DNA from: Endobacterium cereale | GTDB taxonomy: Bacteria > Pseudomonadota > Alphaproteobacteria > Rhizobiales > Rhizobiaceae | Assembly (NCBI RefSeq): GCF_009617585.1 | Contig: NZ_WIXI01000042.1 | Span: 62,001-126,000, forward strand | Reading direction: 5' to 3' | DNA: 64,000 bases | In this document: positions 266 through 17,003 of the stretch, piece after piece | Numbering within the stretch: the stretch's first letter is position 1 | How the letters are laid out: every line of letters starts with the position of its first letter | Made by a program: the position numbers and the translations under genes | Notes under the pieces: model-generated | Told to the model about the DNA's origin: nothing | What the model saw: the letters and a program-made list of their open reading frames with translations, nothing else | Database searches by the model: none

Positions 266-943
266 TCAGGACTCAGCGCCTGCACTGCTCGCGAAGAGCG
301 CGATGACGGCAAGGAGGGCCGGCAAGCTGAAGGCGGCCACAGGCGCGAACATGAAACCGGCAGCGCCAAGCCCGCAGCCAAATGCAAACGTAATGACTGC
401 GGCTCCCATTTTCTTCGCCCGCGCCTTGGCGGCCGCAACCTCTTCGGTTTTCGCGTTGGCCAGAATGTCGGCAAGATCGAGCATGATCTGTGTGGTTGTT
501 CCTGTCATCAGCGTGGATGGCGGCGCTTTCGCCAGATGCGCCTTGTGCAGGCCGTTCTGGATCGCCATCGCCGACACGAGGGTCAGCGCAACCACCAGAG
601 TTATCAGGCTGTTATCGCCGTTGAACGGGCCGTATGCGAAAGCCATCACCGCCACCGCCGCCAGCAGGATCAGCTTGACCACCAGCATGGGGCGGATCGG
701 TGAGCGGTCCCGGCTTTGGAGCTTCAGGCAGATCAGTCGTGACACGAAGACGATCACGTAGAACATCGGAAGCGCCAGAAGTTACGACCACGCGCCATCC
801 AGACCATGAGCCATGGTTGCACCGAGTGTGACGAAGTTCCCTGTGATGTGTGCGGTGAACAACCCGGAAAGCGAAAGGAAGCCAAGCGTGTCGACATAAC
901 CGCCGTTGAAACTGAGGAGGGTAGGAAGCGAGGGAAGTTTCAT
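266..943 (-). pseudogene. DUF1275 (YoaK-like) membrane protein interrupted by one in-frame stop
   Basis: Reading from the ATG at 943 gives MKLPSLPTLLSFNGGYVDTL and then a segment containing SGLFTAHITGNF, the conserved N-terminal signature of DUF1275/YoaK membrane proteins. Codon 54 is TAA (plus-strand TTA at 782-784). The same frame continues past it as LLALPMFYVIVFVSRLICLK and ends normally at 266, so without the stop this would be a complete protein of about 225 residues with several membrane helices. There is no frameshift; a single base change would restore the gene. Either a genuine nonsense mutation or a sequencing error fits. A downstream fragment could start at the internal Met at 766. 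The family's function is unknown. Confidence 0.8.
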
Positions 944-1084
944 GGTCGTGCTCTCTGTCGACGCTACTGTTATCTCGAGTTTTGCCGCTCACAGCTCGCA
1001 TGTGCAATTGCATCAACTATTTAGAATCATTGCGCCAGACGACATAATGGAAAGGGCGGCCAAAGCCGCCCTGCCCGTTTCGCT

Positions 1085-2683
1085 TTATGCCGCCCCGGGC
1101 CGGTTGATGGTAAGGAAGTGGCGAACCACCGGCTTTTCGGGACCGACATGGTAGGTCAGAACCTTGCCCTGCAGGTCGGCATCGGCATTGGAAACCCGCT
1201 TGTGTTGGCGAAGATGCTCCGCCCAGGATTCCACCATGAACCATTCGACGATCTTTTCCGGATCGGCACTGTCTTCGGTCACACCCCATCCATAGGCACC
1301 ATCACGGCGGCGTTCCTTGGACAGATGATCGATGGCGTGCAGGAACGCGGCGCGGTGTTGCTTTTCTACCTTGTATTCGATCAGGATCAGAACCGGACCA
1401 CGATCGTGGGCAACGGGTTCGGCGACAAGCGGTTCTGGCCAATGGTTGGACGGCACCATGTCGGCATCACCAGCCGGGAGTTTGATGCGGTGCATGATGA
1501 ATCCTGCAACGAGCAGTCCGGCGGCACCGATGAGCAGGGTCGACTGGATGCCAACGGCCGTACCGACAGCACCCCAGCCGAGGCTTCCGGCCGTCATCGC
1601 ACCGTTGAAGACGGTTAGATAGACGGCAAGACCACGACCACGCACCCAGTTCGGGAGCACAGCCTGCGCCGTGCCATTCAGCGTGGTAAGAGCCGTGATC
1701 CACGCACCGCCAAGGAAGAGAAGCGCAATGATGGCGACTATCTTTGGCGGGGCAAGCGACAGCACGCCCATGACGGTTGCGGTAATCAGAGCCGCGCCAA
1801 GAAGCAGGCCGTCAGCGCTCAGGCGTTCACGCAGTTTCGGCATGACCAAAGCCCCACCGATTGCACCGGCACCAACGGCACCAAGCAGAATGCCGTAGAA
1901 GCTGGCATCGCCACCGAGCAGTTGGCGGGCAACGAGTGGAAGCAGCGCCCAGACAGCACTGGCAAAGGCGAAGAAGATGGCCGCACGAAGAAGAACGACA
2001 TGGAGGGGGCGGCTTGAGCGGGTGTAGCGAAGCCCGGCACGGAACGCGCCGAAGAAGTTTTCCTGAAGCGCATCATTGGCGTTTTTCGCACGTGGCCACC
2101 AAACCAGGGCAGCAATCACGAAGATGTAGCTGGCAACGTCCGCACCATAGGTGATGCCCGCACCGAAGGCGGCAAGCAGCAAGCCACCCGCGGCCGGTCC
2201 GATGGAGCGGGCGATATTGATGCCGAGCGAGTTTAAAGCGACAGCACTTTTCACGTCCTCCCGCTTCACCAGTTCAGGCACGATCGCCTGCCAGGTCGGC
2301 CCCATCAGAGCCGCACCGATGCCACCAAGGAAGGTCAGGCCGATCAGCGCACTGACGGACAGCATGCCCGTCTGGGACAGAACCATCAGCGAGATACTGA
2401 CGGATGCCAGCAGAAGCTGGACAGCAATCAGGAACTTGCGGCGGTCGAGGATGTCGGTGAGCACGCCTGCCGGGATAGCAAGCAGGAAGATCGGCAGCGT
2501 GCCGGCGGCCTGAACCATGGCAACCGCGGCAGGTGACGCAGACAGATCCGTCATCAGCCAGGAGCTGGCGACATCGCGCATGAAGCTTCCGGTGTTACCA
2601 AGAACCGTGGCAATCCAGAGAACCGCGAAGACAGGTTGTGCGAGAGGCGCGAAGCTGCCCCCGGAGGACTTTGCGGCACTCAT
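1085..2683 (-). CDS. MFS exporter of the MFS_3/EntS type with a C-terminal ABM-like domain
   Basis: This 532-residue protein has about twelve hydrophobic segments in residues 20-410. It carries family features such as GVLTDILDRRKFLIAVQ after helix 2 and SLGINIARSIGPAAGG in the middle, placing it in the group that includes the enterobactin exporter EntS. Residues 435-525 are soluble and read like an antibiotic-biosynthesis-monooxygenase (dimeric alpha/beta barrel) domain: VLILIEYKVEKQHRAAF, then WFMVESWAEHLRQHKRV. This fused tail is known in the family; its role is not. The start overlaps the stop of the upstream DoxX gene by 4 bp (ATGA), so the two are probably translationally coupled. The substrate cannot be told; an exported aromatic or electrophile fits the neighbourhood. 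Confidence 0.88.
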   Translation of the reverse strand: MSAAKSSGGSFAPLAQPVFAVLWIATVLGNTGSFMRDVASSWLMTDLSASPAAVAMVQAAGTLPIFLLAIPAGVLTDILDRRKFLIAVQLLLASVSISLMVLSQTGMLSVSALIGLTFLGGIGAALMGPTWQAIVPELVKREDVKSAVALNSLGINIARSIGPAAGGLLLAAFGAGITYGADVASYIFVIAALVWWPRAKNANDALQENFFGAFRAGLRYTRSSRPLHVVLLRAAIFFAFASAVWALLPLVARQLLGGDASFYGILLGAVGAGAIGGALVMPKLRERLSADGLLLGAALITATVMGVLSLAPPKIVAIIALLFLGGAWITALTTLNGTAQAVLPNWVRGRGLAVYLTVFNGAMTAGSLGWGAVGTAVGIQSTLLIGAAGLLVAGFIMHRIKLPAGDADMVPSNHWPEPLVAEPVAHDRGPVLILIEYKVEKQHRAAFLHAIDHLSKERRRDGAYGWGVTEDSADPEKIVEWFMVESWAEHLRQHKRVSNADADLQGKVLTYHVGPEKPVVRHFLTINRPGAA

Positions 2684-3123
2684 TTGCCTGCTCCCTTCGT
2701 GAGGTCAATTGCTGCGACGAAGATGAATGCGCCTGCCAAGCCGAGATGCTCAAAAAAGGCGTTGGTTGCCATCATGCGATCCATACCGGGAGCCATTTCC
2801 CAGAACCGGAGAGCGAGGACAGTTGCCAGAAGCGTGAACCCTGCAAGCGCCAGGGCGCCGGCCCAGCGGAAGAAGCCGGAGACCACCAAGGCCGAAGCTG
2901 TCAGTTCGAAGGCGATGACGGCGACAGCAAAGAACGCCGCGGGATGAAGACCGAAATGATCCATCTCGGCCAGCGCGCCGTTGAAATCGAAGATCTTGGT
3001 GAGCGGTCCCTGGATATAGGCTGCGCAAAGCGCCAGCAGCGAAACCGTTCGAATGACCGGGGAACCGACGATGCGCGCCAGACTGCTTCTGATGGGGTTC
3101 AAACTGTGAGATTGGTAGGTCAT
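2680..3123 (-). CDS. DoxX family membrane protein
   Basis: A 147-residue protein with four predicted membrane helices, beginning MTYQSHSLNPIRSSLARIVG. The helix pattern and short loops, with PLTKIFDFNGALAEMDHFGL between helices 1 and 2, fit the DoxX/MhqP group. DoxX-like proteins often sit beside quinone or thiosulfate oxidoreductases and exporters; MhqP of Bacillus belongs to a quinone-resistance operon. The start at 3123 is preferred because the longer in-frame extension (to 3177) lacks the look of a DoxX N-terminus. It is the first gene of a two-gene unit with the MFS exporter, and an operator-like sequence lies about 80-120 bp upstream. Confidence 0.82.
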   Translation of the reverse strand: MTYQSHSLNPIRSSLARIVGSPVIRTVSLLALCAAYIQGPLTKIFDFNGALAEMDHFGLHPAAFFAVAVIAFELTASALVVSGFFRWAGALALAGFTLLATVLALRFWEMAPGMDRMMATNAFFEHLGLAGAFIFVAAIDLTKGAGK

Positions 3124-3203
3124 GACTGCTCCTGCATGATCGCCGATCAGATCGAGCGGCTGCGTTTGATGGAGCAATATTGGCTGGTCATTACCTCGCC
3201 AAC

Positions 3204-3245
3204 AATTGCAGCAATAGTTTCGATTTAATTGCGAAATATGAAATT
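3204..3245. promoter_or_regulatory. Operator-like repeat, copy 1 (upstream of doxX-MFS)
   Basis: The sequence runs AATTGCAGCAATAGTTTCGA then TTTAATTGCGAAATATGAAA. Over 42 bases it matches the sequence at 12811-12852 at about 34 positions, with no gaps and in the same position relative to the downstream gene. The ATTGC...GCAAT and TTGCGAA elements recur at 6522 and 9419. The size and the T-N11-A character suit a LysR-type regulator box. It lies 81-122 bp upstream of the DoxX start. Confidence 0.6.
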
Positions 3246-3256
3246 ATCGTAACGGT

Positions 3257-3286
3257 CTTTCGGGCGATCACGTGACCGCCCGAAAG
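3257..3286. terminator. Perfect 10-bp hairpin after the amidohydrolase gene
   Basis: CTTTCGGGCG at 3257-3266 is the exact reverse complement of CGCCCGAAAG at 3277-3286, with a 10-base loop. It lies just after the amidohydrolase stop codon (minus strand) and before the operator of the next unit. There is no strong U-tract on the minus strand, so termination is likely but not certain. Confidence 0.5.
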
Positions 3287-3297
3287 TGATGCCGAGA

Positions 3298-5280
3298 TCA
3301 GACTGCCCAGCAGGAGCAACCGAGAGCGCCGAAGAAACCCTTGAGGTCGGCGATCGGCAGCTTGGATGTCCAGGCTCCCGCGTGATCGTGACCATGCACG
3401 CCGCAATCGCTGGCGCATCCGCACGTCGAGATTGCCGTACGGCGCAACGAGCGGGCGCCCGCACCGTCCGGCTCGCCCCAAGCAGCGTACCCACCGAACT
3501 TACGCACCGGAGACCAGTCGGGCATCGCGGGAGCCAAGTCACTCTCGTCCAGCGCCTTGAAGTCACCAGCGCCATAAACGATCTTGCCGCCGACCATGGT
3601 GAGTTCCGATACGAGGAAGGAGATCTCGTCCTCGGCGCAGGAGAAAAAGTCCTTGTCCGGCACGACGAGATCGGCGAACTGGCCCTTTTCGATGCGGCCC
3701 TTCTTGCCCTCCTCATTGGAAAACCATGTGACTTTTTCCGTCCACATGCGCAGCGCCGTCTCGCGGTCGAGGCAGTTGGCGCGCGGATAAAGCTGCATGC
3801 CGCCGACGGTCTTGCCGGTTACCATCCATGAAAGCGAAACCCACGGATTGTAGGAGGCGACGCGGGTAGCATCCGTGCCGGCCGAAACGTTGACACCCTT
3901 GTCGAGCATGCGTTTGATCGGCGGCGTGGCTTCAGCAACACCGTGGCCGTAACGTTCGACGAAATATTCGCCCTGATAGGCCATGCGGTGCTGGGTGGCG
4001 ATGCCGCCGCCGAGTGCCGCGATACGGTCGATGGAGCGTTCGGAAATGGTTTCCGCATGGTCGAAGAACCAGTTGAGCCCTTCAAGCGGAATATCCTTGT
4101 TGACCTTCTCGAACACATCGAGCGAACGCGAGATCGTCTCGTCATAGGTCGCATGCATACGCCAGGGCCAGCGGTTCTCGGCGAGGACTCGGACGACCTC
4201 TTCCAGTTCGCCTTCCATCTCCGGGGCCATTTCCGGCCGTGGCTGGCGGAAATCCTCGAAGTCAGCGGCCGAAAAGACCAGCATCTCGCCCGCACCGTTA
4301 TGTCGGAAGTAGTCGTTGCCCTGCTTGTATTTGACCGACTGCGTCCAGTTGAGGAAATCCTGCTTCTCTTCCTTCGGCTTCTGGGTGAACAGATTGTAGG
4401 CCAGACGCACCGTCATCTGGTTCTCGTCGGACAGCTTCTGGATCACCTCGTAATCGTCAGGATAGTTCTGGGAGCCGCCGCCGGCATCGATAACACCGGT
4501 AATGCCCAGACGGTTCAGTTCCCGCATGAAGTGGCGGGTCGAGTTGACCTGGTAATCAAGTGGAAGTTTTGGTCCCTTGCCCAGTGTCGAATACAGAATG
4601 CCTGCATTTGGTGTGGCCAGCAGCAGACCAGTGGGGTTGCCATTGGCATCACGGGTAATCTCGCCGCCCGGCGGGTTTGGCGTGTCGCGTGTATAACCGA
4701 CGGCACGAAGGGCTGCACCATTCAGCAAAGCACGATCATAAAGGTGGAGCAGGAAAACGGGCGTATCGGGGGCGACCGCGTTGATCTCCTCGATCGTCGG
4801 CAGGCGTTTTTCCGCAAACTGATGTTCTGTAAAGCCGCCGACGACGCGCACCCATTGTGGGGCGGGCGTGATCGCCACCTGACGCTTGAGCATGTCCATC
4901 GCGTCGGCCAGCGAACGGACACCATCCCAGCGGAGTTCCATATTGTAATTCAGGCCACCACGGACGACGTGGGTGTGGTTGTCGATCAGTCCCGGCAGGA
5001 CGCGGCGGCCCCTAAGGTCGACGATCTTTGTCTCTGGCCCGGCCAGCGCCATGATCTCGCTGCCCGAGCCGGCTTCCTGAAACAGGCCGTCCTTGATGGC
5101 GACAGCGGTTGCGTTCGGGTTGCTCCGGTCAAGTGTGGTGAGGCGGCCGTTATGAAGGATCAGGTCGGGATGCATCGTGTCTATTCTGGTCTGGTTGGGA
5201 TCGGCGGCATTTGCCGTTGCGAAGAGGTTCGAGAACGCCAGGCTCGAAGCGCCTCCGAGAAAGGTGCGGCGCGTGGTCAT
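3298..5280 (-). CDS. Exported amidohydrolase (YtcJ-like) with Cys/His-rich C-terminal tail
   Basis: The 660-residue product starts MTTRRTFLGGASSLAFSNLF, a twin-arginine signal (TRRTFLGG) followed by a hydrophobic stretch and ATANAA, so periplasmic export via Tat is likely. LILHNGRLTTLDRSNPNA and GRRVLPGLIDNHTHVVRGG give the metal-binding His-x-His of the amidohydrolase_3 group; FDHAETISERS, GGIATQHRMAYQ and VSAGTDATR supply later conserved positions. The last 45 residues contain TCGCASDCGVHGHDHA and end GALGCSCWAV, a cluster of Cys and His that looks metal-binding. The substrate is unknown. The start at 5280 is chosen because it opens the signal peptide and overlaps the stop of the XapX gene by one base (TGATG). 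Confidence 0.85.
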   Translation of the reverse strand: MTTRRTFLGGASSLAFSNLFATANAADPNQTRIDTMHPDLILHNGRLTTLDRSNPNATAVAIKDGLFQEAGSGSEIMALAGPETKIVDLRGRRVLPGLIDNHTHVVRGGLNYNMELRWDGVRSLADAMDMLKRQVAITPAPQWVRVVGGFTEHQFAEKRLPTIEEINAVAPDTPVFLLHLYDRALLNGAALRAVGYTRDTPNPPGGEITRDANGNPTGLLLATPNAGILYSTLGKGPKLPLDYQVNSTRHFMRELNRLGITGVIDAGGGSQNYPDDYEVIQKLSDENQMTVRLAYNLFTQKPKEEKQDFLNWTQSVKYKQGNDYFRHNGAGEMLVFSAADFEDFRQPRPEMAPEMEGELEEVVRVLAENRWPWRMHATYDETISRSLDVFEKVNKDIPLEGLNWFFDHAETISERSIDRIAALGGGIATQHRMAYQGEYFVERYGHGVAEATPPIKRMLDKGVNVSAGTDATRVASYNPWVSLSWMVTGKTVGGMQLYPRANCLDRETALRMWTEKVTWFSNEEGKKGRIEKGQFADLVVPDKDFFSCAEDEISFLVSELTMVGGKIVYGAGDFKALDESDLAPAMPDWSPVRKFGGYAAWGEPDGAGARSLRRTAISTCGCASDCGVHGHDHAGAWTSKLPIADLKGFFGALGCSCWAV

Positions 5281-5567
5281 CAGCCCCTCTCCTCGGTGCG
5301 GTGCTCGTCGCGATGAGCAACCTTCACATGATCGCCACCCTTCGGCATGTGACCGAACATGTGAGGCTTGATCTGATGAAGCCATGAGACGGCTGCCGGC
5401 TCCTTGCTCCACAGGGTCTTTGCGAGTGGAATGATCTGTTCGCCGACCAGAATGCCGAGAAGACCGACCAGTGCGATGACGGGCGGCGCCGGAGAGCGAA
5501 CGTTCAGGAGGCTGTAGACAATGCCGACAAGCAGGCCTGCGCCGAGAGACAGAAGGTAGATTTTCAT
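5280..5567 (-). CDS. XapX domain (DUF1427) membrane protein
   Basis: A 95-residue protein starting MKIYLLSLGAGLLVGIVYSL, followed by LNVRSPAPPVIALVGLLGIL and VGEQIIPLAK. This two-helix layout, with the P-A-P-P-x-I-A-L-x-G-L-x-G-I-L centre, is the XapX signature. A polar His-rich tail follows (HQIKPHMFGHMPKGGDHVKV). The function is unknown; xapX genes are often found next to amidohydrolases and isochorismatase-like hydrolases, as here. The ATG at 5567 is preceded by GGATCTCC with an AGGATCTCC-type ribosome site. Its stop overlaps the amidohydrolase start, so it is the middle gene of a three-gene unit. Confidence 0.82.
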   Translation of the reverse strand: MKIYLLSLGAGLLVGIVYSLLNVRSPAPPVIALVGLLGILVGEQIIPLAKTLWSKEPAAVSWLHQIKPHMFGHMPKGGDHVKVAHRDEHRTEERG

Positions 5568-5635
5568 TTGGAGATCCTCCACGGGATAGAGAAAGACCAC
5601 TCCGACGGGGTGATCGGAGTGGTCTGTTCCGGTCC

Positions 5636-6337
5636 TTACTTGCCGCTGTTCTGGGCGGGGTTCGGACCGATGCGCTTGCCGTGGGTGACGCGCTCGGCGG
5701 CCTTGTGGACATGGGTATAGGCATAGTCGATACCCATGCCGTAGGCGCCGGAATGCTCCTTCACCAGAGTGGTGACCGCATCGTAGGTTTCCTTGCGGGC
5801 CCAATCGCGCTGCCATTCAAGCAGAACCTGCTGCCAGGTGACCGGGATAACACCTGCCTGAACCATGCGATCCATCGCGCGATTGTGAGCCTCGAGCGAC
5901 GTGCCGCCGGATGCGTCGGCGACCATGTAGATCTCGTAGTCTGCAACATCATGAAGAGCCGAAAGCGCGAAGGTCGTATTGCAGACTTCCGTCCACAGAC
6001 CGGCGACCACGATTTTCTTGCGGCCTTCGGCGGCATTTTTCGCCAGCGCGTCGCGAACGTTCTGGTCGTCCCAGGAGTTCATCGAGGTGCGCTCGAGAAT
6101 ATCGTTTTCCGGGTATACGGCGAGCAACTCGGGAAAAGTGTTGCCGGAAAAACTGTCGGTTTCGACCGTGGTGATCGTGGTCGGAATGTCGAAGATCTTG
6201 GCGGCCTTGGCGAGACCGACGACGTTGTTCTTCAGCGTCTGACGGTCGATCGACTGAACACCGAAAGCCATCTGCGGCTGCTGGTCGATAAAGATGAGCT
6301 GGCTGTTTACCGGGGTCAGGACTTGGAGCTTGGACAT
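5636..6337 (-). CDS. Isochorismatase-like cysteine hydrolase (YcaC type)
   Basis: A 233-residue cytoplasmic hydrolase of the isochorismatase superfamily. The catalytic Asp is in LIFIDQQPQMAFGV near residue 18, and the nucleophile Cys lies in VVAGLWTEVCNTTFALSAL near residue 120, followed by YMVADASGGTS. The Q-P-Q-M after the Asp and the W-T-E-V-C block are typical of YcaC-like proteins, whose true substrates are not known. The C-terminal 35 residues, ending GKRIGPNPAQNSGK, go beyond the core fold. It is the first gene of the unit with xapX and the amidohydrolase, 68 bp before xapX. Confidence 0.85.
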   Translation of the reverse strand: MSKLQVLTPVNSQLIFIDQQPQMAFGVQSIDRQTLKNNVVGLAKAAKIFDIPTTITTVETDSFSGNTFPELLAVYPENDILERTSMNSWDDQNVRDALAKNAAEGRKKIVVAGLWTEVCNTTFALSALHDVADYEIYMVADASGGTSLEAHNRAMDRMVQAGVIPVTWQQVLLEWQRDWARKETYDAVTTLVKEHSGAYGMGIDYAYTHVHKAAERVTHGKRIGPNPAQNSGK

Positions 6338-6711
6338 GATCTGGTTCCTCGTAACGTGTTGGCCATCATTGTGGCGTCATGAAATGGGTAGCCGCACTCG
6401 ATCGGACGCCGCAGTACGGCGTTCGCTCTTCAATCCTTGAGGTTTTCCGGTTCCTTGAGGGAGCCGTTCACCCGTTGTCTTGGCTGCTGATAAGAAAACT
6501 ATCGCGTCTGACTTAGGTGTAGAATTGCAATATTCATTGCGAATGAATTCCACATTTTGCAATAATCGATCGATGTTCCCCGGTGGCATGCGGATAGTCG
6601 TCACGCTTGTCGCTTGAACTATCCGGCGAGGTCTTGTCGATTAGTCAGATCTATAGGATGAAAGGCAGGCAAATCTTGGTTGTCTGTAACAAGGGTGTGA
6701 GCAACCGATGC
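6338..6711. other. 374-bp non-coding region upstream of the isochorismatase-like gene
   Basis: No convincing gene is seen on either strand. The region carries operator copy 2 at 6522-6567 and is A+T-rich around it, in contrast to the flanking coding DNA. It must hold the promoter of the isochorismatase-xapX-amidohydrolase unit and the end of the araC-like gene. Confidence 0.6.
6522..6567. promoter_or_regulatory. Operator-like repeat, copy 2
   Basis: It begins GAATTGCAATATTCATTGCG and continues AATGAATTCCACATTTTGCA. Its first 28 bases match copy 3 (9419) at 26 positions. It is about 185-230 bp upstream of the isochorismatase-like start, farther than in the other three units. Confidence 0.6.
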
Positions 6712-7623
6712 TCAGGACGTGCGCCTCCACGTGCCGGGAGTGACGCCGACAACCGTTGAAAAGACCCGCGTGAAATGGCTCTGATCCGAGAAGCCGCATG
6801 CGATCGCCACGTCGGAAAGGGAGGCGTCACTTGCAAGAAGAAGCGTCCGGGCACGGCTTATCCGCTCTCGCAGCAGCCATTGGTAAGGGGTCATCCCTGT
6901 CGTCTCGCGGAAGGCATGAATGAAGTAGCCGCGCGATAGATTGCATGCCTGCGCAAGCTCTGCCACCGACACCGCACCTTGAAGATTTTCAAGAATCATC
7001 GACTTCGCAGTGTTTTCCTGTAGTCGCGATAGCCTCCGTGGTTTGGAGGCCCTTACGAGAGAGCGATCCCCGTACTGCTGAACGACATGGGTTCCGATCG
7101 CCGCCGTCAGTTGATCGACAAATAGCTTGCTTGCCTCTTCCGGATGGTCGAGAGCCGGGATCAGTGCCCGCGCCAGATTGGCGAGGACGGGATCGGGCTG
7201 CGCGGTGATGGTCTTCAGTGCGGATATTGTTGGCAGATCGGCTTCCTGCGCGATGGTCTCGAGAGAGGAATGCGAGAGTTCCAGGAGCAGGAAATCAAAC
7301 GGACCATCGAGATCGGCTTTGTAGTCCTCGGCCAGGCCGCGGATGTAGACGGTGTCGTGCAGGAAAACGTGGGTCGTAACGTGATGTGCATGGAAGATGC
7401 GTCGCGTATGGCCTGGAAGCGTTGAAACTCCAACGACGAATCCACGATCGCTAGCTGGGCTCTCCACCTGCTGCAGAAACGCGTCGCGAGAACCTTTACG
7501 CAAGACGGTCAGGCCCGCCCCGCGGATCATCTGGTTCTTATAGAGTTTATCAAACGGGCAGCCGTAGCTATCGGTCGATTCGTCGGCAGGATTTTTCGAG
7601 GCAGTGGTATCTTTCCTCAACAA
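6712..7623 (-). CDS. AraC family transcriptional regulator
   Basis: A 303-residue regulator. The last 100 residues form the double helix-turn-helix DNA-binding domain: ENLQGAVSVAELAQACNLSR then GYFIHAFRETTGMTPYQWLL, and LSDVAIACGFSDQSHFTRVF followed by VGVTPGTWRR. The N-terminal 190 residues are a sensory domain with HAHHVTTHVFLHDTV. The ligand is unknown. It lies on the same strand as, and upstream of, the isochorismatase unit, but 374 bp separate them. The sensory part resembles that of the truncated regulator at 7806, which is transcribed divergently. Confidence 0.9.
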   Translation of the reverse strand: MLRKDTTASKNPADESTDSYGCPFDKLYKNQMIRGAGLTVLRKGSRDAFLQQVESPASDRGFVVGVSTLPGHTRRIFHAHHVTTHVFLHDTVYIRGLAEDYKADLDGPFDFLLLELSHSSLETIAQEADLPTISALKTITAQPDPVLANLARALIPALDHPEEASKLFVDQLTAAIGTHVVQQYGDRSLVRASKPRRLSRLQENTAKSMILENLQGAVSVAELAQACNLSRGYFIHAFRETTGMTPYQWLLRERISRARTLLLASDASLSDVAIACGFSDQSHFTRVFSTVVGVTPGTWRRTS

Positions 7624-7805
7624 ATACGCTACCTTCCAGTTTGAACGAGCCAGCAGGAAACCTCGGAACCCGTACCTATCCGGGATATCCGCGACACTTC
7701 ACTACCCCAACACGGCAACAAGCGCCACAACGGCGGATTGAACGAATTTGCAACGCAACGGCTCGGACACTTTGACATTCCGATACCATTTCATACGAGA
7801 TTATT

Positions 7806-8366
7806 GTGATTGAAACATCGGCTGCAGCCGAAAACATGGGGGGCTGGTTTCAGGCTGGCAGTGTCCCCACAATCGTAACAAGGCCGCTGGGATTTGCCGA
7901 AGTGACGGTTGGCTATGTCGTCCGCGACTACGACGCTCAAGACCCTGCCGTGGTAATTCCGGCCTGCGACGCTTTCCTTATCATGTTGTATCTGACCGAT
8001 GTCGAGCATTCCGACATATGGCCGGACAAGCCTGCCGCGCCTCTGAAGATGTATCCTGAAGGATCCATCTGCCTGATCAGCCTCGCACGTGGGGCGGCGA
8101 TTGCTGTTCGTGGCTCGCTGGAGGCGCTGGTGATCCACCTTCCGCGCAGCCACCTGTCCGAACTGGCTGAACACACCGGAGAGCCCTGCGTCGATGATCT
8201 GGCAACATGCCGTGGGATGGATGACCCGACGGTGCGTGATATCGGCGCGGCCCTCCTCCCCCTCATCGATCAGGATCATTCCGATGGCTCTCTGGTCAAC
8301 CATATCGCGCTCGCGCTCAACGCCCATCTGGTTCATCGTTATGGCCGATCGCGCAGCACGCATTGA
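7806..8366 (+). CDS. AraC-type sensory domain without a DNA-binding domain
   Basis: The GTG at 7806 opens a 186-residue product (MIETSAAAENMGGWFQAGSV). It looks like the N-terminal half of an AraC-family regulator: RPLGFAEVTVGYVVRDYDAQ, a LEALVIHLPRSHLSEL block and the end of the sensor, LVNHIALALNAHLVHRYGRS. The stop follows at RSTH, exactly where the linker to the helix-turn-helix domain would begin, and no helix-turn-helix can be read downstream in any frame before the next gene. It is therefore either a 3'-truncated pseudogene or a sensor-only protein. A small hairpin (CGCGATC/GATCGCG) lies just beyond the stop. Confidence 0.65.
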   Translation: MIETSAAAENMGGWFQAGSVPTIVTRPLGFAEVTVGYVVRDYDAQDPAVVIPACDAFLIMLYLTDVEHSDIWPDKPAAPLKMYPEGSICLISLARGAAIAVRGSLEALVIHLPRSHLSELAEHTGEPCVDDLATCRGMDDPTVRDIGAALLPLIDQDHSDGSLVNHIALALNAHLVHRYGRSRSTH

Positions 8367-8420
8367 CACGCCGCGATCCGAAGATCGCGACGTTGCTACA
8401 TATTGACGTTGGTGCTTCGA

Positions 8421-9353
8421 TCAATCCGCTAGAGGCGCGAGGTTTGCCTGGATCTCATCCCGGAACTCCTCATATCGGCTAGGGAGCTTGAGCGCTTCGC
8501 CAAGATGTGCGGTGTCTTCATCCCTGTTGAAGCCAGGTTCGTGCGTGGCGACCTCGAAAAGAACGCCGCCCGGCGTGCGAAAGTAGATCGCCCAGAAATA
8601 GTCGCGATCGATAACGGGAGTGACCTGATATCCGGTATCCATCAGTGCCTTGCGCACTTCGAGCTGCTTCTCGCGATTGTCGACAGCGAACGCGATGTGG
8701 TGGACGGAGCCTGCACCTGGGCGAGCGAATGCCGTCTTGGGAAGCGATGCAAGATCGATCGTGTCCGCTCCGTTACCATTTGGAATGATGAAGCGGGTGA
8801 CATCCCCTTCCTTATCGGCCTTCTGATAGCCCATGAAGCCAAGCAGCTCCTCGGTTGCGGCGGTATCGTGCAGGCTAAATCGTGCCCCGGCGAAACCGCG
8901 GATGGCAGCATCATCAGGGATGCCCTGCGAAAGCCACGGAGCGCGTTTGTCGCCTGCGGATTCGATCAGGGAAAGACTGTCGCCGTCTGGTCCCATGAAG
9001 CAGAGACGCTCGGCTCCAAACACGGTATCGGTTTCAAGACCATCGACACCCTGAGCAACAAAGCGATCCTGCCAGAACTTCAGAGAACCCTTTGGAACGG
9101 AGAACTGCGTCTCGCCGACCTCACCTACCCCCGGACGGCCCAACATCATGTTCTGGAATGGGAAATAGGTCATGACCGTTCCAGCAGAACCGTTCTCGTC
9201 ACCGTAATACAGATGGTAGACGCTTGGATCGTCAAAATTGACCGTCTGCTTGACGCGGCGCAGCCCGAGCGTTTCCGTGAAGAAGCGGTTGTTCTGACCG
9301 GCATCCGATGCCATCGAGGTCACGTGATGCAGTCCCTTGATATCCTTGATCAT
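8421..9353 (-). CDS. Ring-cleaving dioxygenase, VOC/glyoxalase fold (MhqA/MhqO-like)
   Basis: A 310-residue protein with two glyoxalase-like modules. It starts MIKDIKGLHHVTSMASDAGQ; the His of GLHHVTSM, the His of GSVHHIAFAVDN near residue 215 and the Glu of GGVLFEVATHEPGF near 270 match the 2-His-1-Glu metal site of the family. FFTETLGLRRVKQTVNFDDP and YHLYYGDENGSAGTVMTYFP are diagnostic for the MhqA/MhqO/PcpA-like group, which cleaves hydroquinone-type rings. It is transcribed divergently from the LysR gene at 9467, with an operator-like sequence between them, so that regulator is the obvious candidate controller. Exact substrate unknown. Confidence 0.9.
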   Translation of the reverse strand: MIKDIKGLHHVTSMASDAGQNNRFFTETLGLRRVKQTVNFDDPSVYHLYYGDENGSAGTVMTYFPFQNMMLGRPGVGEVGETQFSVPKGSLKFWQDRFVAQGVDGLETDTVFGAERLCFMGPDGDSLSLIESAGDKRAPWLSQGIPDDAAIRGFAGARFSLHDTAATEELLGFMGYQKADKEGDVTRFIIPNGNGADTIDLASLPKTAFARPGAGSVHHIAFAVDNREKQLEVRKALMDTGYQVTPVIDRDYFWAIYFRTPGGVLFEVATHEPGFNRDEDTAHLGEALKLPSRYEEFRDEIQANLAPLAD

Positions 9354-9418
9354 GACGAAGCCTTCCTTGGCGTTATTTGATCTGTTGAAATGAAACTACG
9401 CCTGTTGATCACCTGCCG

Positions 9419-9465
9419 GAATTGCAATATTAATTGCGAATGAGTTGCAATATTTGAAATAATGC
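9419..9465. promoter_or_regulatory. Operator-like repeat, copy 3 (dioxygenase/LysR intergenic region)
   Basis: It begins GAATTGCAATATTAATTGCG, continues AATGAGTTGCAATATTTGAA and ends directly before the LysR start codon. It contains ATTGCAAT and TTGCAATA elements in a symmetrical setting and aligns with copy 2 at 26 of the first 28 bases. Its place between a LysR gene and its divergent target is the classical LysR operator position and implies autoregulation. Confidence 0.65.
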
Positions 9466-9466
9466 C

Positions 9467-10366
9467 ATGAACGATTACAAAGCCCTCCGTACCTTCCTCC
9501 TCGCTGCTGAGAAGCGAAACTTTGCCCAGGTAGCGCGCGAACTGGACATGACACCCGCAGCCGTCACCCGTGCCATCGCGGCACTCGAGGCAGAGCTCGG
9601 TGTTCAGCTTTTCGTGCGCACCACGCGGCAGGTGTCGCTAACCACCGACGGTGCGATTTTCGCCGCGCAGATCCAGCCTGCGGTGAAAACGCTGGAAGAC
9701 GCACGTCGCGAAGTGATGAATGCGCACAAGAGTGACGAAGGACGGCTTCGGATCAGCGCGCCGACATGGTTCGGCAAGACCGTGCTGCCGCCGATCCTGT
9801 CAGGGTTCAAGGAACGTTATCCGAAGATGAGTTTCGAGATCTCGTTGTCCGACGGACTGGTGAACATCGTCGATGACGATTACGACCTTGCGATCCGCAT
9901 CTCGTCGCAACCATCCGACAAGTTCACGATCTGGCGCAAGATCCGTGTCGTACCGCGTATCCTCGTCGCTGCACCAGGCAGTCGTTTTGCCGACATGCAG
10001 CATCCGAATGAGCTGAAACCGGACGACTGCCTCGCCTATAGTGGTGAAAGCCGTCGCGAGAACTGGGTCCTGTCCGATGGTGGCTCGAGCATGAATATCG
10101 CTGCGGGCCGGGCATTCAGCGCCAACAGTGGCGAGGTTCTGGCAGACATGGCGGCCGATGGCGCAGGCGTTGCACTGCTGCCGGGGTTCAACATCGCCGA
10201 TCACATCCGGAGCGGACGTCTCGTCCATGTCTTCAAGGGATGGTCACCGCCGGATCTCTGGCTGACGCTGTTCTATCCGCCCTATCAGGCGCTGCCGCCC
10301 CGCATCGCATCATTCTCGAAATTCTTCGAGGAACAGGTTGCGGCTCACATGGTGATGCTGGACTGA
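9467..10366 (+). CDS. LysR family transcriptional regulator (candidate master regulator of the left region)
   Basis: The 299-residue protein starts MNDYKALRTFLLAAEKRNFA with the winged helix-turn-helix QVARELDMTPAAVTRAIAAL and EAELGVQLFVRTTRQVSLT in residues 5-65. An effector-binding domain follows (LRISAPTWFGKTVLPPILSG; YDLAIRISSQPSDKFTIWRK). The sequence belongs to the large CrgA/DmlR-like LysR group. It is divergent from the ring-cleaving dioxygenase, and its own operator sequence recurs in front of three other nearby units, which suggests local regulon control. The inducer is unknown. Confidence 0.9.
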   Translation: MNDYKALRTFLLAAEKRNFAQVARELDMTPAAVTRAIAALEAELGVQLFVRTTRQVSLTTDGAIFAAQIQPAVKTLEDARREVMNAHKSDEGRLRISAPTWFGKTVLPPILSGFKERYPKMSFEISLSDGLVNIVDDDYDLAIRISSQPSDKFTIWRKIRVVPRILVAAPGSRFADMQHPNELKPDDCLAYSGESRRENWVLSDGGSSMNIAAGRAFSANSGEVLADMAADGAGVALLPGFNIADHIRSGRLVHVFKGWSPPDLWLTLFYPPYQALPPRIASFSKFFEEQVAAHMVMLD

Positions 10367-10386
10367 TGTGCTTCTGAAGACTGATC

Positions 10387-11106
10387 TCAGTCTTCAGGCA
10401 TGTCGCGAAGCTTGCTGGCAACCATTTCCTGAAGCTGCCACAAGTTTCGATCGTGGATGTTACGATCCACCAGATCCGAAACCGTTCGGTGCAGATATTC
10501 CGCACACGAGCCGGCAGGTCCGCAGGCCTGAGCGATCAGCACCGCAGCATCATCGAGCGAGATTTTCTCCGTGAGCTGGGATTGTTTCGTGCTTGCCCAG
10601 AAGGTCAGGGCGCGGCGTGTGCCCGTAGCGGTCCTGACCGTGACCCAACGAACCATGTCGCACACTTCCGAATATCGGATCTCGCGCGCGAGAAGAGTGC
10701 GCAGATCCTGCTTCTTGGTCGCACACGGAAGTTTGAGGATAAGCCCTGTACAACTCCCTCCCGGCCGAAGCGCCAGCATGAGGCCCGGCGCATCCGAAGT
10801 AGCCCTAAGGCGTTCTATCCTCAGCGAGAATGCACGGTGCCATCCGTGGGCGACCGCTTCCTCGCTGGCCGACACGTCGAACCCCGGATTCCACATCAGG
10901 GATCCGTAAGCGAACACCCAGATCTCCTCGTCACCGCCCCCCTGCTCGACGCTGCTGACGAGTTCATCGAGTTGGCGGGATGATATTGGGGTCCAGTTGG
11001 GTTCCGGGCCTTCGTCTTCGACAACCCTGATGGTTCTCTCAACAAGATCTGTCGTCAGCTGCATGGCAACAGGTGCACGTGTCTTGGCTACGGGTGTCTT
11101 AAGCAT
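10387..11106 (-). CDS. chaC: ChaC-like gamma-glutamylcyclotransferase
   Basis: A 239-residue protein. EEIWVFAYGSLMWNPGFDVS carries the YGSLMW substrate-binding loop of the ChaC family, and the rest follows the family: GWHRAFSLRIERLRATSDAP, GLMLALRPGGSCTGLILKLP and REIRYSEVCDMVRWVTVRTA, with the catalytic Glu region in REIRY. ChaC proteins split glutathione to 5-oxoproline and Cys-Gly. The family is clear although the N-terminal 60 residues are longer than in the E. coli protein. It is the last gene of the likely hydrolase-rid-chaC series and suggests thiol metabolism in this detoxification region. Confidence 0.88.
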   Translation of the reverse strand: MLKTPVAKTRAPVAMQLTTDLVERTIRVVEDEGPEPNWTPISSRQLDELVSSVEQGGGDEEIWVFAYGSLMWNPGFDVSASEEAVAHGWHRAFSLRIERLRATSDAPGLMLALRPGGSCTGLILKLPCATKKQDLRTLLAREIRYSEVCDMVRWVTVRTATGTRRALTFWASTKQSQLTEKISLDDAAVLIAQACGPAGSCAEYLHRTVSDLVDRNIHDRNLWQLQEMVASKLRDMPED

Positions 11107-11179
11107 CGTGATACCTGCTTCAACGAGGATACCGCCGGAGCGTGTAGGTCCGGCGGGTTATGATATGACTGCTATCGGA

Positions 11180-11638
11180 TCAGTCCGCAGAACCGTCGAT
11201 CACGGCGCGGAACGTGATCTCCACGATCTGTTCCGGGAATGCCAGCGATGTAACTCCGATCAGGTTGCTGGCGCATTGCGGCATGTCCGTCCCGTACATT
11301 TCCTTGCGCACCTTCGAGCCAGCGGCAAACGCACTCGGGACATCGAGAACGAAAAGAGTTTCTTCGACCACATCGTCAAGCGTCGCTCCGTATTCGGCAA
11401 GCAGTGTCTTGGCGTTGACATAGGTCTGGCGGATCTGCGCTTCCATCTGCGAGAAATCGGCAGGTCGACCGTCCGCATCGAGAGCGGCCGGGGCAATGAG
11501 CTTGCCGTCGCCATCGTGGCTCAACTGTCCCGATATGTAGATCGTGTCCTTAACCTTTACGGCCTGCACGTAACCGAATGCGCGTTCCCAGGCCACACCG
11601 AGATTGGCAACCTTCTTGGCAGATTGAGTGTTTGTCAT
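11180..11638 (-). CDS. Rid (YjgF/YER057c) family protein
   Basis: The 152-residue product starts MTNTQSAKKVANLGVAWERA. The fold signature is TIYISGQLSHDGDGKLIAPA, then QMEAQIRQTYVNAKTLLAEY and LDDVVEETLFVLDV. The final block reads DMPQCASNLIGVTSLAFPEQ with IVEITFRAVI. The archetypal RidA imine deaminase has an Arg in this block; here there is none, so it probably belongs to another Rid subfamily and enamine/imine deaminase activity is doubtful. The ATG at 11638 is preferred over an upstream in-frame start at 11677 because it begins the family-length N-terminus and has a GGAAAATATC ribosome site. Confidence 0.85.
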   Translation of the reverse strand: MTNTQSAKKVANLGVAWERAFGYVQAVKVKDTIYISGQLSHDGDGKLIAPAALDADGRPADFSQMEAQIRQTYVNAKTLLAEYGATLDDVVEETLFVLDVPSAFAAGSKVRKEMYGTDMPQCASNLIGVTSLAFPEQIVEITFRAVIDGSAD

Positions 11639-11740
11639 GATATTTTCCTTCGCGTCAGACAGAGGCGCTTCAAGCACATATGAATTTGTGGTCCGACTGG
11701 CGACGGGTGCGTGGGAGGCCGTACCCGTCGTCGGTGCCGA

Positions 11741-12721
11741 TCAAGCCTTTACGAAGGCCAGCAGATCGGCGTTGAGGACATCGGCATTGACGGTGAGCAT
11801 GCCATGCGAGAAGCCGGGATAGGTCTTGAGCGTGCCGTTCTTCAAAAGCTTCGCTGACTTCAGCGCCGAATCCGCAATCGGTACGATCTGGTCGTCCTCG
11901 CCATGCAACACCAGCGTAGGAACAGTGATCGCCCTCAGATCATCCGTCTGATCGGTTTCGGAGAAGGCCTTGATGCCATCGTAATGGGCTTTAGCGCCGC
12001 CCATCATGCCCTGCCGCCACCAGTTCTGGATCACGCCTTCCTGGACCTTTGCGCCGTCACGGTTGAAGCCGTAGAACGGACCTGCAGGAACGTCGCGGAA
12101 GAATTGCGCGCGGTTGGCGGCGAGCGCTGAACGGAAACCATCGAATACTTCCATCGGCAGCCCTTCCGGGTTGGAAGCAGTCTTCAGCATCAGCGGCGGA
12201 ACGGCGGAGACCAGGACGGCCTTGGCGACGCGACCGGAGGGCTGACCATGCTTGGCGACATAACGGGCCACCTCACCGCCGCCCGTCGAATGGCCGATAT
12301 GGACTGCATTCTTCAGGTCCAGCGCTTCAACGACAGCGAAGGCATCGGCCGCATAGTGGTCCATGTCGTGACCATCCGCCACCTGAGCCGAGCGGCCATG
12401 GCCACGGCGGTCATGTGCGACAACCCGGTAACCCTTGGAGAGGAAGAACAGCATCTGTGCATCCCAATCGTCAGACGAGAGCGGCCAGCCGTGGTGGAAC
12501 ACGATCGGCTGCGCGTCCTTCGGACCCCAGTCCTTGTAGAAGATTTCGACGCCGTCCGTTGTGGTCACGTAAGCCATGGTCTTGTTTCCTTCGATTGGAT
12601 TTGCAGTAGAGGCAGCCTTGGCTGCGAAGCTGAAAGTGGATGAAATTGCGACAGCCGCTGCGGCAGCGCCTGCGGAAAGCAGCGCTCCTCTGCGTGTCAT
12701 GGAAGAAATGTTCTGGGTCAT
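11741..12721 (-). CDS. Exported alpha/beta hydrolase (non-heme chloroperoxidase/esterase type)
   Basis: 326 residues starting [20 protein letters not shown], a twin-arginine-like signal ([11 protein letters not shown]) with a hydrophobic stretch ending FAAKAA. An internal Met ([20 protein letters not shown]) marks where cytoplasmic homologues begin. The catalytic Ser lies in [16 protein letters not shown] (G-H-S-T-G), the acid in [12 protein letters not shown] and the His in [14 protein letters not shown]. The oxyanion region [19 protein letters not shown] matches the chloroperoxidase/aryl-esterase group. It heads the series with the Rid and ChaC genes (103 and 74 bp gaps), and operator copy 4 lies 90-131 bp upstream. 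Confidence 0.88.
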
Positions 12722-12810
12722 CTTGCGTCCTGCGGTTTCGTTATTGAAAACTTCAGGCGACGCTGTGTTCGTCTGACGGGCTGATATTGCCGTCAGATGC
12801 ATCCGCTCAC

Positions 12811-12852
12811 AATTGCGGGAATAATTTCGAGTTTATTGCGGATTATGAAATA
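12811..12852. promoter_or_regulatory. Operator-like repeat, copy 4 (upstream of alpha/beta hydrolase)
   Basis: It reads AATTGCGGGAATAATTTCGA then GTTTATTGCGGATTATGAAA. It aligns without gaps to copy 1 at 3204 across 42 bases, with identity concentrated in AATTGC, AATA-TTTCGA, ATTGCG and TATGAAAT. Similar spacing to the downstream start codon supports a shared regulatory role. Confidence 0.6.
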
Positions 12853-13076
12853 GTGAAAGCGATCTCTGGCTGACGAGCGCGCTCGCGATATGAACCGGTT
12901 GCCCAAGCTCAGAAAGAAATGTCACGCGTTTTATAAGCCAAACAGATCTCGACCTTGGGCCATCTGCATCATCGTAACGCGATAATATGCAAACTGCCAG
13001 AAAAGCCGATTAGCCCCACAGTTGCACCCCATGGATTTCACATTGCGCAACTGAGGGGCGTGTCCATATTCGACCG

Positions 13077-14711
13077 TCAAATCTCCTTGATCAACTGCTC
13101 GGCGATGCGCACGCTGAGCGCCGCCCCCGTCAATGTCGGGTTCATACAAGAGGCTGACGGCATCACGCTGGTGCCGGCGATGAACATATTCGAATGGTCA
13201 TGTGTGCGGCAATCGCGATCCACAACAGAGTCCCTTGGATCATCGCCCATCCTGGTTGTGCCCATGACATGCTGGCGGTTCTGCCATTTGACGTCGGTGG
13301 AAAGGACCTCGGCATCGAGCAGTTCGGCGATCTTGTTCAGATCCTGCAAACCGCGGTCACGACCGGCGTTCCAGTAATCAGTGACGCTGTAATAGAGGAC
13401 CGGAACGGGGATGCCGAGCGCATCGAACTTGGTCTTCGACGGCGTCACGCGGTTTTCCGCCAGAGGTAGCGGTTCGAAATCGATCGCCCAGTTGAGCGAG
13501 CGAGCCGAATATTTGCGGATCTGCTCGTCCAGCTTGGAGCCGAGAATACCTTTCTTGATGAACCCTTCGGTCATCTGCGCGGTCGGCACGGTGTTGCGAA
13601 CCTTGATCTTGTAGCTCGGATAGTCCTTGCGGAATTCGCCGTCGCGCTGGTTGAGGTAGACCAGAAGCTCGGTCGGGCCTTCACCCGGCCACATGTCCTC
13701 TTTGGTCAGCATGTTCATGCTGATGCCCGTATGGTCCATGAGGTTTCGGCCGACCTGATCCGATGAGTTGGCGATGCCGTTCGGATATTTTTCCGAGGTG
13801 GAGATCAGCAAAAGTTTGGCCGATTCGATGCCGTAGGCGGCAAGCACGAAATATTTGGCCGTCAGCCGGTGTTCGGAATTGTCCGGTTTTTTGTACCAGA
13901 TCGCGGTGATCTTGCCGTCGTCGCCGGCTTCGATCTTGTAGACGGGCGAATTGTCCAAAAGCTTGGCGCCGTGGCGTTCGGCTTCGTCGATATGCATCGA
14001 CCCGTCATATTTGGCGCCGATCGGACAGACCGGATTGCAGTTGTTGTTGCCGGCGCAGACCGGGCGGTTGCCATATGGGCGCGAGGCGCGGCCATGCGGC
14101 TCCAGGACGGGATTGAAGCCGCCGACGAGAAGCTTTTCCGAAAGCGTATCGAACATGTAGCTGGAGTTCAGCTGCTTCATCGGGAAAGGCATGGTGCGAG
14201 GCGGCATTGGTTCGCCACCCTGTCCGCTTTCGTCTTGGCCGTCGGTGCCGGTGACGCCGAGTTCCAGTTCAGCCTTGTTGTAATACTGCTCCAGGTCGTC
14301 ATAGCCGATCGGCCAGTCGCGGCCGCGACCGTAGAGCGTCTGGATCTTGAAGTCGTTGGGGATCATCCGCCACAGGGCAGAGCCGAAATGCCATGTCGTG
14401 CCGCCGACGACGCGCAGATACGAGGTGTTGTATTTCACCGGACCTTCGAACTGCAGATAATCGCCATAGGTCGATGGCGCATGCGGCAAGCTCGGGAATG
14501 GAGAACCGGCACCCTGCAGCTTGGCATTGGCAAGCGACAGTTTGACCGGTGCGTTACGGTAGGTTTCGACGATCTCGCGGCGATTGACCCGCGGACCGGC
14601 CTCCAGCACGATGACCTTCTTGCCGGCCTTGGCGAGATTGGCGGCGACGATGCCGCCCATGACGCCCGAGCCGATGACAATCAGGTCGGCATCATAGGAT
14701 GTGTTAGCCAT
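13077..14711 (-). CDS. GMC-type FAD dehydrogenase, catalytic subunit of a three-subunit membrane complex
   Basis: A 544-residue flavoprotein. The N-terminus DLIVIGSGVMGGIVAANLAK with the E at KKVIVLEAGPRV is the FAD-binding Rossmann motif; VVGGTTWHFGSALWRMIPND and NNNCNPVCPIGAKYDGSMHI are typical of the large subunits of gluconate 2-dehydrogenase, sorbitol dehydrogenase and fructose dehydrogenase. The active-site His region is QNRQHVMGTTRMGDDPRDSV, and the end is CMNPTLTGAALSVRIAEQL. It lies 14 bp after the small subunit and downstream of the triheme cytochrome c, giving the usual three-part periplasmic dehydrogenase. The sugar or polyol oxidised cannot be told from sequence. Confidence 0.92.
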   Translation of the reverse strand: MANTSYDADLIVIGSGVMGGIVAANLAKAGKKVIVLEAGPRVNRREIVETYRNAPVKLSLANAKLQGAGSPFPSLPHAPSTYGDYLQFEGPVKYNTSYLRVVGGTTWHFGSALWRMIPNDFKIQTLYGRGRDWPIGYDDLEQYYNKAELELGVTGTDGQDESGQGGEPMPPRTMPFPMKQLNSSYMFDTLSEKLLVGGFNPVLEPHGRASRPYGNRPVCAGNNNCNPVCPIGAKYDGSMHIDEAERHGAKLLDNSPVYKIEAGDDGKITAIWYKKPDNSEHRLTAKYFVLAAYGIESAKLLLISTSEKYPNGIANSSDQVGRNLMDHTGISMNMLTKEDMWPGEGPTELLVYLNQRDGEFRKDYPSYKIKVRNTVPTAQMTEGFIKKGILGSKLDEQIRKYSARSLNWAIDFEPLPLAENRVTPSKTKFDALGIPVPVLYYSVTDYWNAGRDRGLQDLNKIAELLDAEVLSTDVKWQNRQHVMGTTRMGDDPRDSVVDRDCRTHDHSNMFIAGTSVMPSASCMNPTLTGAALSVRIAEQLIKEI

Positions 14712-14725
14712 TTTCGTGATTCCTG

Positions 14726-15253
14726 TCAGATCTTGCTGCCGGGTTTTGGTCCCCAGGCGTTGGGGCCGGGTCCATAAGACGGGATGGTGAGGAGGCCCTT
14801 GGTCGGGCGGTACATCAGCGAATCGGCATAGGTGATGAGCTCGGCATCTTCCGGCTCGCCGACGACGCCGAGATACCAGGCGGAAACGATCTTGGTGGCG
14901 GTCTTCATCAGAGCCGGATCGGTACCGGAAAGGGCGAGAAAACCGTCCATGTTCGGCACGCCGGACTGTTTGATCAGGCTCGAAAGCGCTGCCATGCTGG
15001 CATCGAGATCGGCATCTCGTTTTTTCAGCGCCGCCAGAAAGCGGCCGCCGAGGACCGGATCGAGCGTGTAGCCGGTCAGGAATTCAGACAGTTGGGTGAA
15101 GGAAGCGACGCCATCATCTGCCGCGACAGCAGAAAGAGGACCGGCAAGATCGGCCAAGAGGGCAAGGCCCGCAATGGCGACTGTGGTGCGCAGCAAACCG
15201 CGGCGCGAGACGTGCTGGCCAAACATGGCCGGGGAGGAACGATCGATAGGCAT
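14726..15253 (-). CDS. Small (TAT-signal) subunit of FAD/cytochrome c dehydrogenase
   Basis: 175 residues, starting MPIDRSSPAMFGQHVSRRGL with the twin-arginine motif SRRGLLRTT and a hydrophobic stretch ending LSAVAA. The mature part (FTQLSEFLTGYTLDPVLGGR; TKIVSAWYLGVVGEPEDAEL; YADSLMYRPTKGLLTIPSYG) fits the subunit-3 family of sorbitol, fructose and gluconate dehydrogenases, which carries the flavin subunit through the Tat pathway. The start at 15253 opens the signal peptide. It lies between the cytochrome c gene (44 bp) and the GMC gene (14 bp). Confidence 0.88.
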   Translation of the reverse strand: MPIDRSSPAMFGQHVSRRGLLRTTVAIAGLALLADLAGPLSAVAADDGVASFTQLSEFLTGYTLDPVLGGRFLAALKKRDADLDASMAALSSLIKQSGVPNMDGFLALSGTDPALMKTATKIVSAWYLGVVGEPEDAELITYADSLMYRPTKGLLTIPSYGPGPNAWGPKPGSKI

Positions 15254-15297
15254 CAGGATCTCCGGGGGAGCGTTCAATGCGGGAAAGGAAGGGTGCT

Positions 15298-16722: not shown

Positions 16723-17003
16723 GGGCAACGTGCTTTCATCAAGCATGAAGGATTGGCGCCAGATCCAGCTTCTCCTCCCACGAGCAAGACTGTTCCGTGT
16801 CATCACCAGTCCGGCGCCACACCGGATCAGATGCCAAACCTACTCAAGCGCTTCTTTTATCAGAAACATCTGTGGTTGCCCGCAACCGGGCCGAACGGCG
16901 TGTCGATGTGTCGCGGTGGCGACTTGATCTGGGTCATATCGCCGGCATGATGGCTTTGAATATCAATTTGTCGTAGAAGCAGCTTTCACATCAGGTGAAA
17001 GCA

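Follow-up and report, generated by a model that had tools for sequence, protein, structure and literature searches.

LysR-type regulators usually bind 50-60 bp of DNA: their recognition site, which contains T-N11-A, lies near -65, and their activation site in the -35/-10 regions. They often also act as repressors of their own, divergently oriented gene (PMC8407307). The bound protein is a tetramer, with a shift between activation sites (PMC11739112). The 64,000-nucleotide stretch of Endobacterium cereale DNA considered here (contig NZ_WIXI01000042.1, positions 62,001 to 126,000; the window) encodes a LysR-type regulator at 9467-10366 and carries five copies of an A+T-rich element, each in front of a separate unit. 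Judging from sequence comparison, these copies are highly likely to be operators through which this LysR acts on the five units. The protein very probably activates these units and represses its own gene, because the sites are conserved, stand at operon heads and co-occur with the LysR gene. It would be a new example of a familiar kind of LysR switch, very probably switching these probable detoxification genes together. The arrangement shares with LysR regulons in general the HTH_1 and LysR_substrate domains, a T-N11-A motif predicted to lie near -65, an element that would reach to -35 and a divergent regulator (PMC8407307). It differs from them in that one LysR would serve no fewer than five units, which form an accessory cluster that is largely contiguous, through a long and strongly conserved 45-bp operator.

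In Escherichia coli, the LysR protein YhaJ recognizes a T-N11-A box of the form TCA-N7-TGA, activates yqjF and responds to inducers that include hydroquinone and catechol (PMC5031710). The yqjF gene is annotated as DoxX family, and the DoxX protein of the window is distantly like YqjF (29% over 95 aa). Both regulons place a LysR-type T-N11-A box ahead of a DoxX-family gene, but the box (ATTGC-N7-G(C/A)AA here, TCA-N7-TGA there) and the gene set (yqjF, yhaK, ybiJ and others in E. coli) are different. Orthology of the LysR at 9467 with YhaJ, and with it membership of the YhaJ regulon, was rejected by pairwise comparison, in which the likeness was 33% over 61 aa and confined to the DNA-binding domain. 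In the MhqR regulons of Firmicutes, ring-cleaving dioxygenases and an alpha/beta hydrolase stand under a quinone-sensing regulator, MhqR, a MarR-type repressor with a 9-9 palindrome over the start site (PMC6798810). The window shares with these regulons (Bacillus, Staphylococcus) a dioxygenase of the MhqO/MhqE family, for which MhqO is the best solved match, and an alpha/beta-hydrolase. In contrast, its regulator is LysR-type with an upstream site rather than a MarR-type repressor and, unlike in the MhqR regulon, no azoreductase or nitroreductase occurs among the scanned units. The MhqR regulon of B. subtilis also contains a DoxX-like protein, MhqP. PcpR belongs with the PcpA chlorophenol pathway; the dioxygenase here is homologous to PcpA (4huz, 5.5e-41), but MhqO is its closer solved relative. 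Among the matches listed from the open-licence literature, judged by title or start of abstract, no paper was found that describes the present regulon. RhizoBindingSites, with computed motifs for nine symbiotic species, may include parts of its motif (PMC7674921).

A sequence-only reading of the window had described four similar A+T-rich copies, ahead of doxX-MFS, an isochorismatase unit, a dioxygenase/LysR pair and an alpha/beta-hydrolase unit. All four are present where it placed them and precede these very units, and a leave-one-out weight matrix and a genome pattern scan set them beyond chance. The putative operators and their proposed reader are:

1005..1048, + strand: operator 5, 44 nt, upstream of the DUF1275/YoaK gene; a full-length site lies at the same place in relatives
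3203..3247, + strand: operator 1, upstream of doxX-MFS
6522..6566, + strand: operator 2, upstream of the YcaC-XapX-amidohydrolase unit
9419..9463, + strand: operator 3, in the divergent dioxygenase/lysR intergenic region, ending 3 bases ahead of the LysR ATG (9467)
12810..12854, + strand: operator 4, upstream of the alpha/beta hydrolase-RidA-ChaC run
9467..10366, + strand: LysR-type regulator, proposed reader of the operators; PF00126 9.2e-20 (N-terminal HTH_1), PF03466 2.7e-34 (C-terminal LysR_substrate)

Operators 1-4 are A+T-rich, are all read on the + strand and align without gaps over 45 columns, where the earlier claim had been of 42 bp for copies 1 and 4 and only 28 bp for copies 2 and 3. 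Copies 1 and 4 agree at 36/45 positions and copies 2 and 3 at 38/45, the remaining pairs at 29-32/45. Each copy held out from the weight matrix scores 44-55 bits, against 7.6-10.2 bits for the best other site in the window. When up to 3 mismatches are allowed, a fixed-length pattern matches the 6,114,623-base genome four times, at operators 1-4 only; the same pattern read backwards, as a control, gives no match in this genome. Gap variants were sought only in the window and in 80 loci of relatives, not genome-wide. In the window, a two-block scan with a variable middle gap revealed operator 5 (42.0 bits), which is one base short between its halves and hence outside the fixed-length set. The rest of the top ten consists of the four known sites together with readings of them at a wrong gap (23.2 to 6.6 bits), and the best score in the reversed window is only -3.3 bits. 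When the 80 loci were scanned in this way, the best 25 of 51 matches above 15 bits were mostly register-shifted readings of known sites. All five operators share one orientation, with a minus-strand target gene to their left.

The strongest symmetry centre among 208 distinct sites is column 34, the middle of a 17-bp dyad, ATTGC-N7-G(C/A)AA. This dyad contains a T-N11-A, formed by T at column 28 (0.99) and A at column 40 (0.98). Within the window, the following elements belong to the sites and their promoters:

9444..9460, no strand assigned: 17-bp dyad of operator 3 (columns 26-42), probable recognition site; GTTGC-N7-GAAAT with T-N11-A
3177..3182, - strand: -10-like hexamer CAATAT, 20 bp from operator 1; NAnnnT stands there in all 49 distinct doxX promoters of relatives
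6496..6501, - strand: -10-like hexamer TAGTTT, 20 bp from operator 2 (ycaC)
9393..9398, - strand: -10-like hexamer TAGTTT, 20 bp from operator 3; dioxygenase promoter
12784..12789, - strand: -10-like hexamer CAATAT, 20 bp from operator 4 (hydrolase)

The spacing from column 1 to the -10-like hexamer is exactly 20 bp at all four full-length window sites. In relatives, this exact offset has NAnnnT in 100% of 49 promoters for DoxX, 98% of 47 for the hydrolase and 95% of 37 for YcaC; the other offsets that were tried average 2%. Each of the two site classes holds to its own -10 type, either CAATAT or TAnnnT. The usual distance from -10 to the transcription start is 7 nt. Counted from starts predicted with this value and the constant 20 bp, the centre of the dyad would lie near -66, and the site's left end would coincide with -35. 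On the LysR side, relatives have 3-5 bases between operator and start codon in 75 of the 79 cases measured. No Shine-Dalgarno-like stretch is seen ahead of LysR on reading 9419-9469, because the operator occupies that place, and the leader from which LysR is translated may be very short. The sequence-only reading took copy 3 for the operator of the LysR gene itself. However, copy 3 appears to serve two roles, lysR autoregulation and activation of the divergent dioxygenase gene, the latter because of its orientation and its -10 spacing.

The same reading had made its proposal depend on conservation of the boxes in relatives, and they prove to be conserved. The 80 loci come from named genomes and were gathered by LysR search (LysR identity 82-98%). 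The window matrix locates 231 sites above 20 bits, in 79 of these 80 LysR-orthologue loci and ahead of the same units, while the reversed matrix and each of 20 column-permuted matrices find none there. A gene was counted if its locus included 400 bp of upstream sequence, and a site had to lie in target orientation within 350 bp. On this basis, sites precede the operon-head genes for the dioxygenase (67/67), DoxX (50/52), the hydrolase (49/52), DUF1275 (9/11) and YcaC (39/65); all 26 YcaC genes without a site stand directly behind a dioxygenase. LysR has a site in the divergent direction in 78/80. Operon-internal and other genes are nearly or entirely devoid of sites: amidohydrolase 0/58, XapX 0/62, ChaC 0/21, MFS 1/51, RidA 2/14, AraC 0/10 and AraC-N 0/4. 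Mean information per site column is 1.41 (DoxX), 1.26 (hydrolase) and 1.42 (YcaC) bits and falls to 0.13-0.15 in the 30 bases beyond, with intermediate values (0.4-1.0 bits) on the gene-ward flank. The dioxygenase site reaches 1.58 bits per column; its far flank extends into the LysR gene and has 0.87. In loci with displaced or inverted units (L012, L018, L028, L049, L056, L079), the site follows the gene and keeps its orientation. Plasmid pAt1D1478 of Agrobacterium fabrum carries a full-length site ahead of a YoaK gene that is annotated whole, and four more before DoxX, YcaC, dioxygenase/LysR and the alpha/beta hydrolase.

Motif and LysR also occur together across 297 genomes of the family; in each genome, scoring covered the 7 best candidates from a first look. 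The motif is present in 26 genomes and a LysR of at least 80% identity in 22; all 22 LysR genomes have the motif, as opposed to 4 of the 275 others (G068, with a G+C-rich, chance-like match, G180, G224 and G245). Among 289 genomes drawn evenly from the whole class, a LysR match at E <= 1e-65 was found only in the window's own genome; with this sample and this threshold, relatives are therefore seen in the family alone. In genomes that lack this LysR, the upstream regions of all 7 YcaC homologues and of 20 hydrolase genes were examined, the latter being the 22 that rank highest after G180, G224 and G245, less G034 and G136 (lower-ranked ones not included). Nothing above 0 bits occurs in 26 of these 27 regions. 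The exception is the YcaC gene of G068, which has a 43.5-bit site of the kind seen with distant LysRs; this genome has a LysR of 46% identity. Inside LysR genomes, none of 13 hydrolase paralogues, chosen from among the matches listed, has a site. Genome G051 has a site 78 kb from its LysR locus (L094, 7482-7526), about 60 bp before a DUF1622-like gene, a relative of which sits right behind YoaK in A. fabrum. More distant LysRs, of 39-52% identity and sampled in 20 of the 32 genomes that have one, keep much of the layout: the dioxygenase is divergent to LysR in 19/20 loci, and a site above 15 bits (19-38) lies at the same place in 13/20. Their DNA-binding domains are 50-65% identical.

Several observations weigh against control of the five units by this LysR. 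The co-occurrence has a Fisher p of 1.5e-29 that is uncorrected for kinship, and the 80 loci and 297 genomes are partly the same genomes. Three genomes, G180 (L086), G224 (L087) and G245 (L088), have a good site before the hydrolase and no intact LysR of this type, G224 retaining only a fragment; counting these, 3 of 23 hydrolase genes examined in LysR-less genomes have a site. The operators kept in them may be relics, or may be read by another LysR. Two of the 80 loci, L060 and L073, lack a site at LysR, and L073 lacks any. For 11 of the 231 sites, the first 600 bp on the target side contain no gene of a type found in the window. No site above 15 bits is present in 7 of the 20 distant LysR loci, and G273, with a LysR of 70% identity, has only a weak one (28 bits). 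The dioxygenase promoters of relatives (n=65) mostly have the TA and lack the final T of the -10. Finally, operator 5 has a weak -10 (CAAAAC) and precedes an interrupted gene.

The sites, their register, orientation, spacing and conservation and their co-occurrence with LysR are read from the sequence itself. From them we infer binding, the tetramer, activation, autorepression and the extents of the operons. A LysR tetramer would occupy the 45-bp element 20 bp from the -10, with its recognition dyad (ATTGC-N7-G(C/A)AA) centred near -66 and at least one additional half-site (ATTGC/TTTCG) between there and the -35 region, and would contact RNA polymerase once the inducer is bound. Leftward activation would then cover DUF1275, doxX-MFS, ycaC-xapX-amidohydrolase, the dioxygenase and alpha/beta hydrolase-ridA-chaC. 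The dioxygenase/lysR intergenic site would very probably repress lysR, since the same site covers the start of that gene. The comparisons support the earlier suggestion that the LysR at 9467 controls a regulon, but the four units counted then are too few: the site stands before no fewer than five target units, and before lysR itself.

The same sites could be read by another regulator of the neighbourhood, either the product of an AraC-type gene at 6712-7620 in the window or one of the other LysR genes found near some clusters, and the three genomes with a site and no intact LysR of this type fit such a reader. However, only 10 AraC orthologues pass the filter in the 80 loci, whereas sites are present in 79, the site stands 3-5 bases ahead of the LysR start in 75 of 79 cases, the dyad is of LysR type (T-N11-A), and the genome-wide co-occurrence follows this LysR (the AraC gene being left out of the count in the 297 genomes). 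Another reader is thus very unlikely; on orthologue count, site position, dyad type and LysR co-occurrence, AraC in particular was rejected. Nor do the copies look like a dispersed repeat or recently duplicated promoter fragments devoid of regulatory meaning. Four similar copies inside 10 kb might suggest this, but the fixed-length pattern finds no further copy in the genome, conserved columns are flanked by unconserved bases in many species, and orientation and -10 spacing are fixed, with each site class tied to its own -10 type. This origin is extremely improbable, and both it and chance were rejected on the genome pattern scan, the conserved columns, the fixed spacing and the matrix controls.

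The LysR might instead be a plain repressor everywhere, with induction amounting to derepression, as the 45-bp element extends to the -35 region, where a bound protein could block polymerase. Yet the site lies upstream of, and not over, the -10 of the leftward genes, and at 17-bp spacing the sequence shows only poor -35 hexamers in the YcaC and dioxygenase promoters. Moreover, the dyad, with a predicted centre near -66, is close to the usual position of the recognition site of LysR activators (PMC8407307). Pure repression is accordingly unlikely, and activation of the leftward units combined with autorepression is the preferred reading.

What the preferred LysR switch would respond to can be approached through the genes of its units. 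Their products are:

266..943, - strand: DUF1275/YoaK-like gene; PF06912 (frame 266-766), in-frame stop at 782-784, intact frame in relatives
1085..2683, - strand: MFS_3 transporter; PF05977, 4-bp overlap with doxX
2680..3123, - strand: DoxX-family membrane protein; PF07681 (scanned from 3177)
3298..5280, - strand: amidohydrolase (Amidohydro_3); PF07969
5280..5567, - strand: XapX/DUF1427 small protein; PF07235 (scanned as open reading frame 5280-5816)
5636..6337, - strand: YcaC-type isochorismatase-fold hydrolase; PF00857, 1yac match 1.1e-26
8421..9353, - strand: MhqO/PcpA-family ring-cleaving dioxygenase; 3oaj (MhqO) 1.1e-68 over residues 2-308, 4huz (PcpA) 5.5e-41
10387..11106, - strand: ChaC-like gamma-glutamylcyclotransferase, downstream of RidA; PF04752
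11180..11638, - strand: Rid-family protein, downstream of the hydrolase; PF01042
11741..12721, - strand: alpha/beta hydrolase of the non-haem chloroperoxidase/arylesterase family; 1zoi 8.8e-135, with a twin-arginine-like leader read by eye

The dioxygenase aligns with the MhqO and PcpA structures at H, H and E columns, which we take to be the metal ligands. The inducer could tentatively be a quinone, a hydroquinone or a related aromatic, which the regulon would detoxify. Within this proposal, quinone or hydroquinone detoxification is the likely task because the dioxygenase is MhqO-like, and such a compound would be the most likely signal because of the parallels with the MhqR regulon and with YhaJ-yqjF. 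The proposal draws on dioxygenase homology and on parallels with other systems, which counts against it. More broadly, Rhizobiaceae possibly have here an accessory LysR regulon, often carried on plasmids, for sensing quinones or hydroquinones (from plants or competitors, for example) and switching on a set comprising dioxygenase, DoxX, esterase, transporter, Rid and glutathione-turnover functions. On this tentative view it would be a counterpart of the MhqR regulon that arose by convergence, is run by a LysR and has operators that move together with its genes. The sites provide a precise, conserved operator model (45 bp, a fixed 20 bp to the -10) for an accessory regulator found in rhizobia and agrobacteria. 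Common control is also proposed for genes of unclear role (YcaC, XapX, DoxX, DUF1275, DUF1622, RidA, ChaC), with aromatic electrophile stress indicated as a candidate signal. The long conserved element, with matched close and distant LysRs, forms a natural data set on the recognition and activation half-sites of LysR tetramers.

To the right of operator 4, the region 13077-16806 (- strand) encodes a GMC oxidoreductase, an FAD-SLDH-like small subunit and a cytochrome c, together a membrane dehydrogenase set; the two-block window scan found no operator of this kind before it. Two adjacent YcaC matches occur in each of L096 (G290), L056 and L049, with an operator for each in L096 and L056, which may be the same genome, and one site found in L049.

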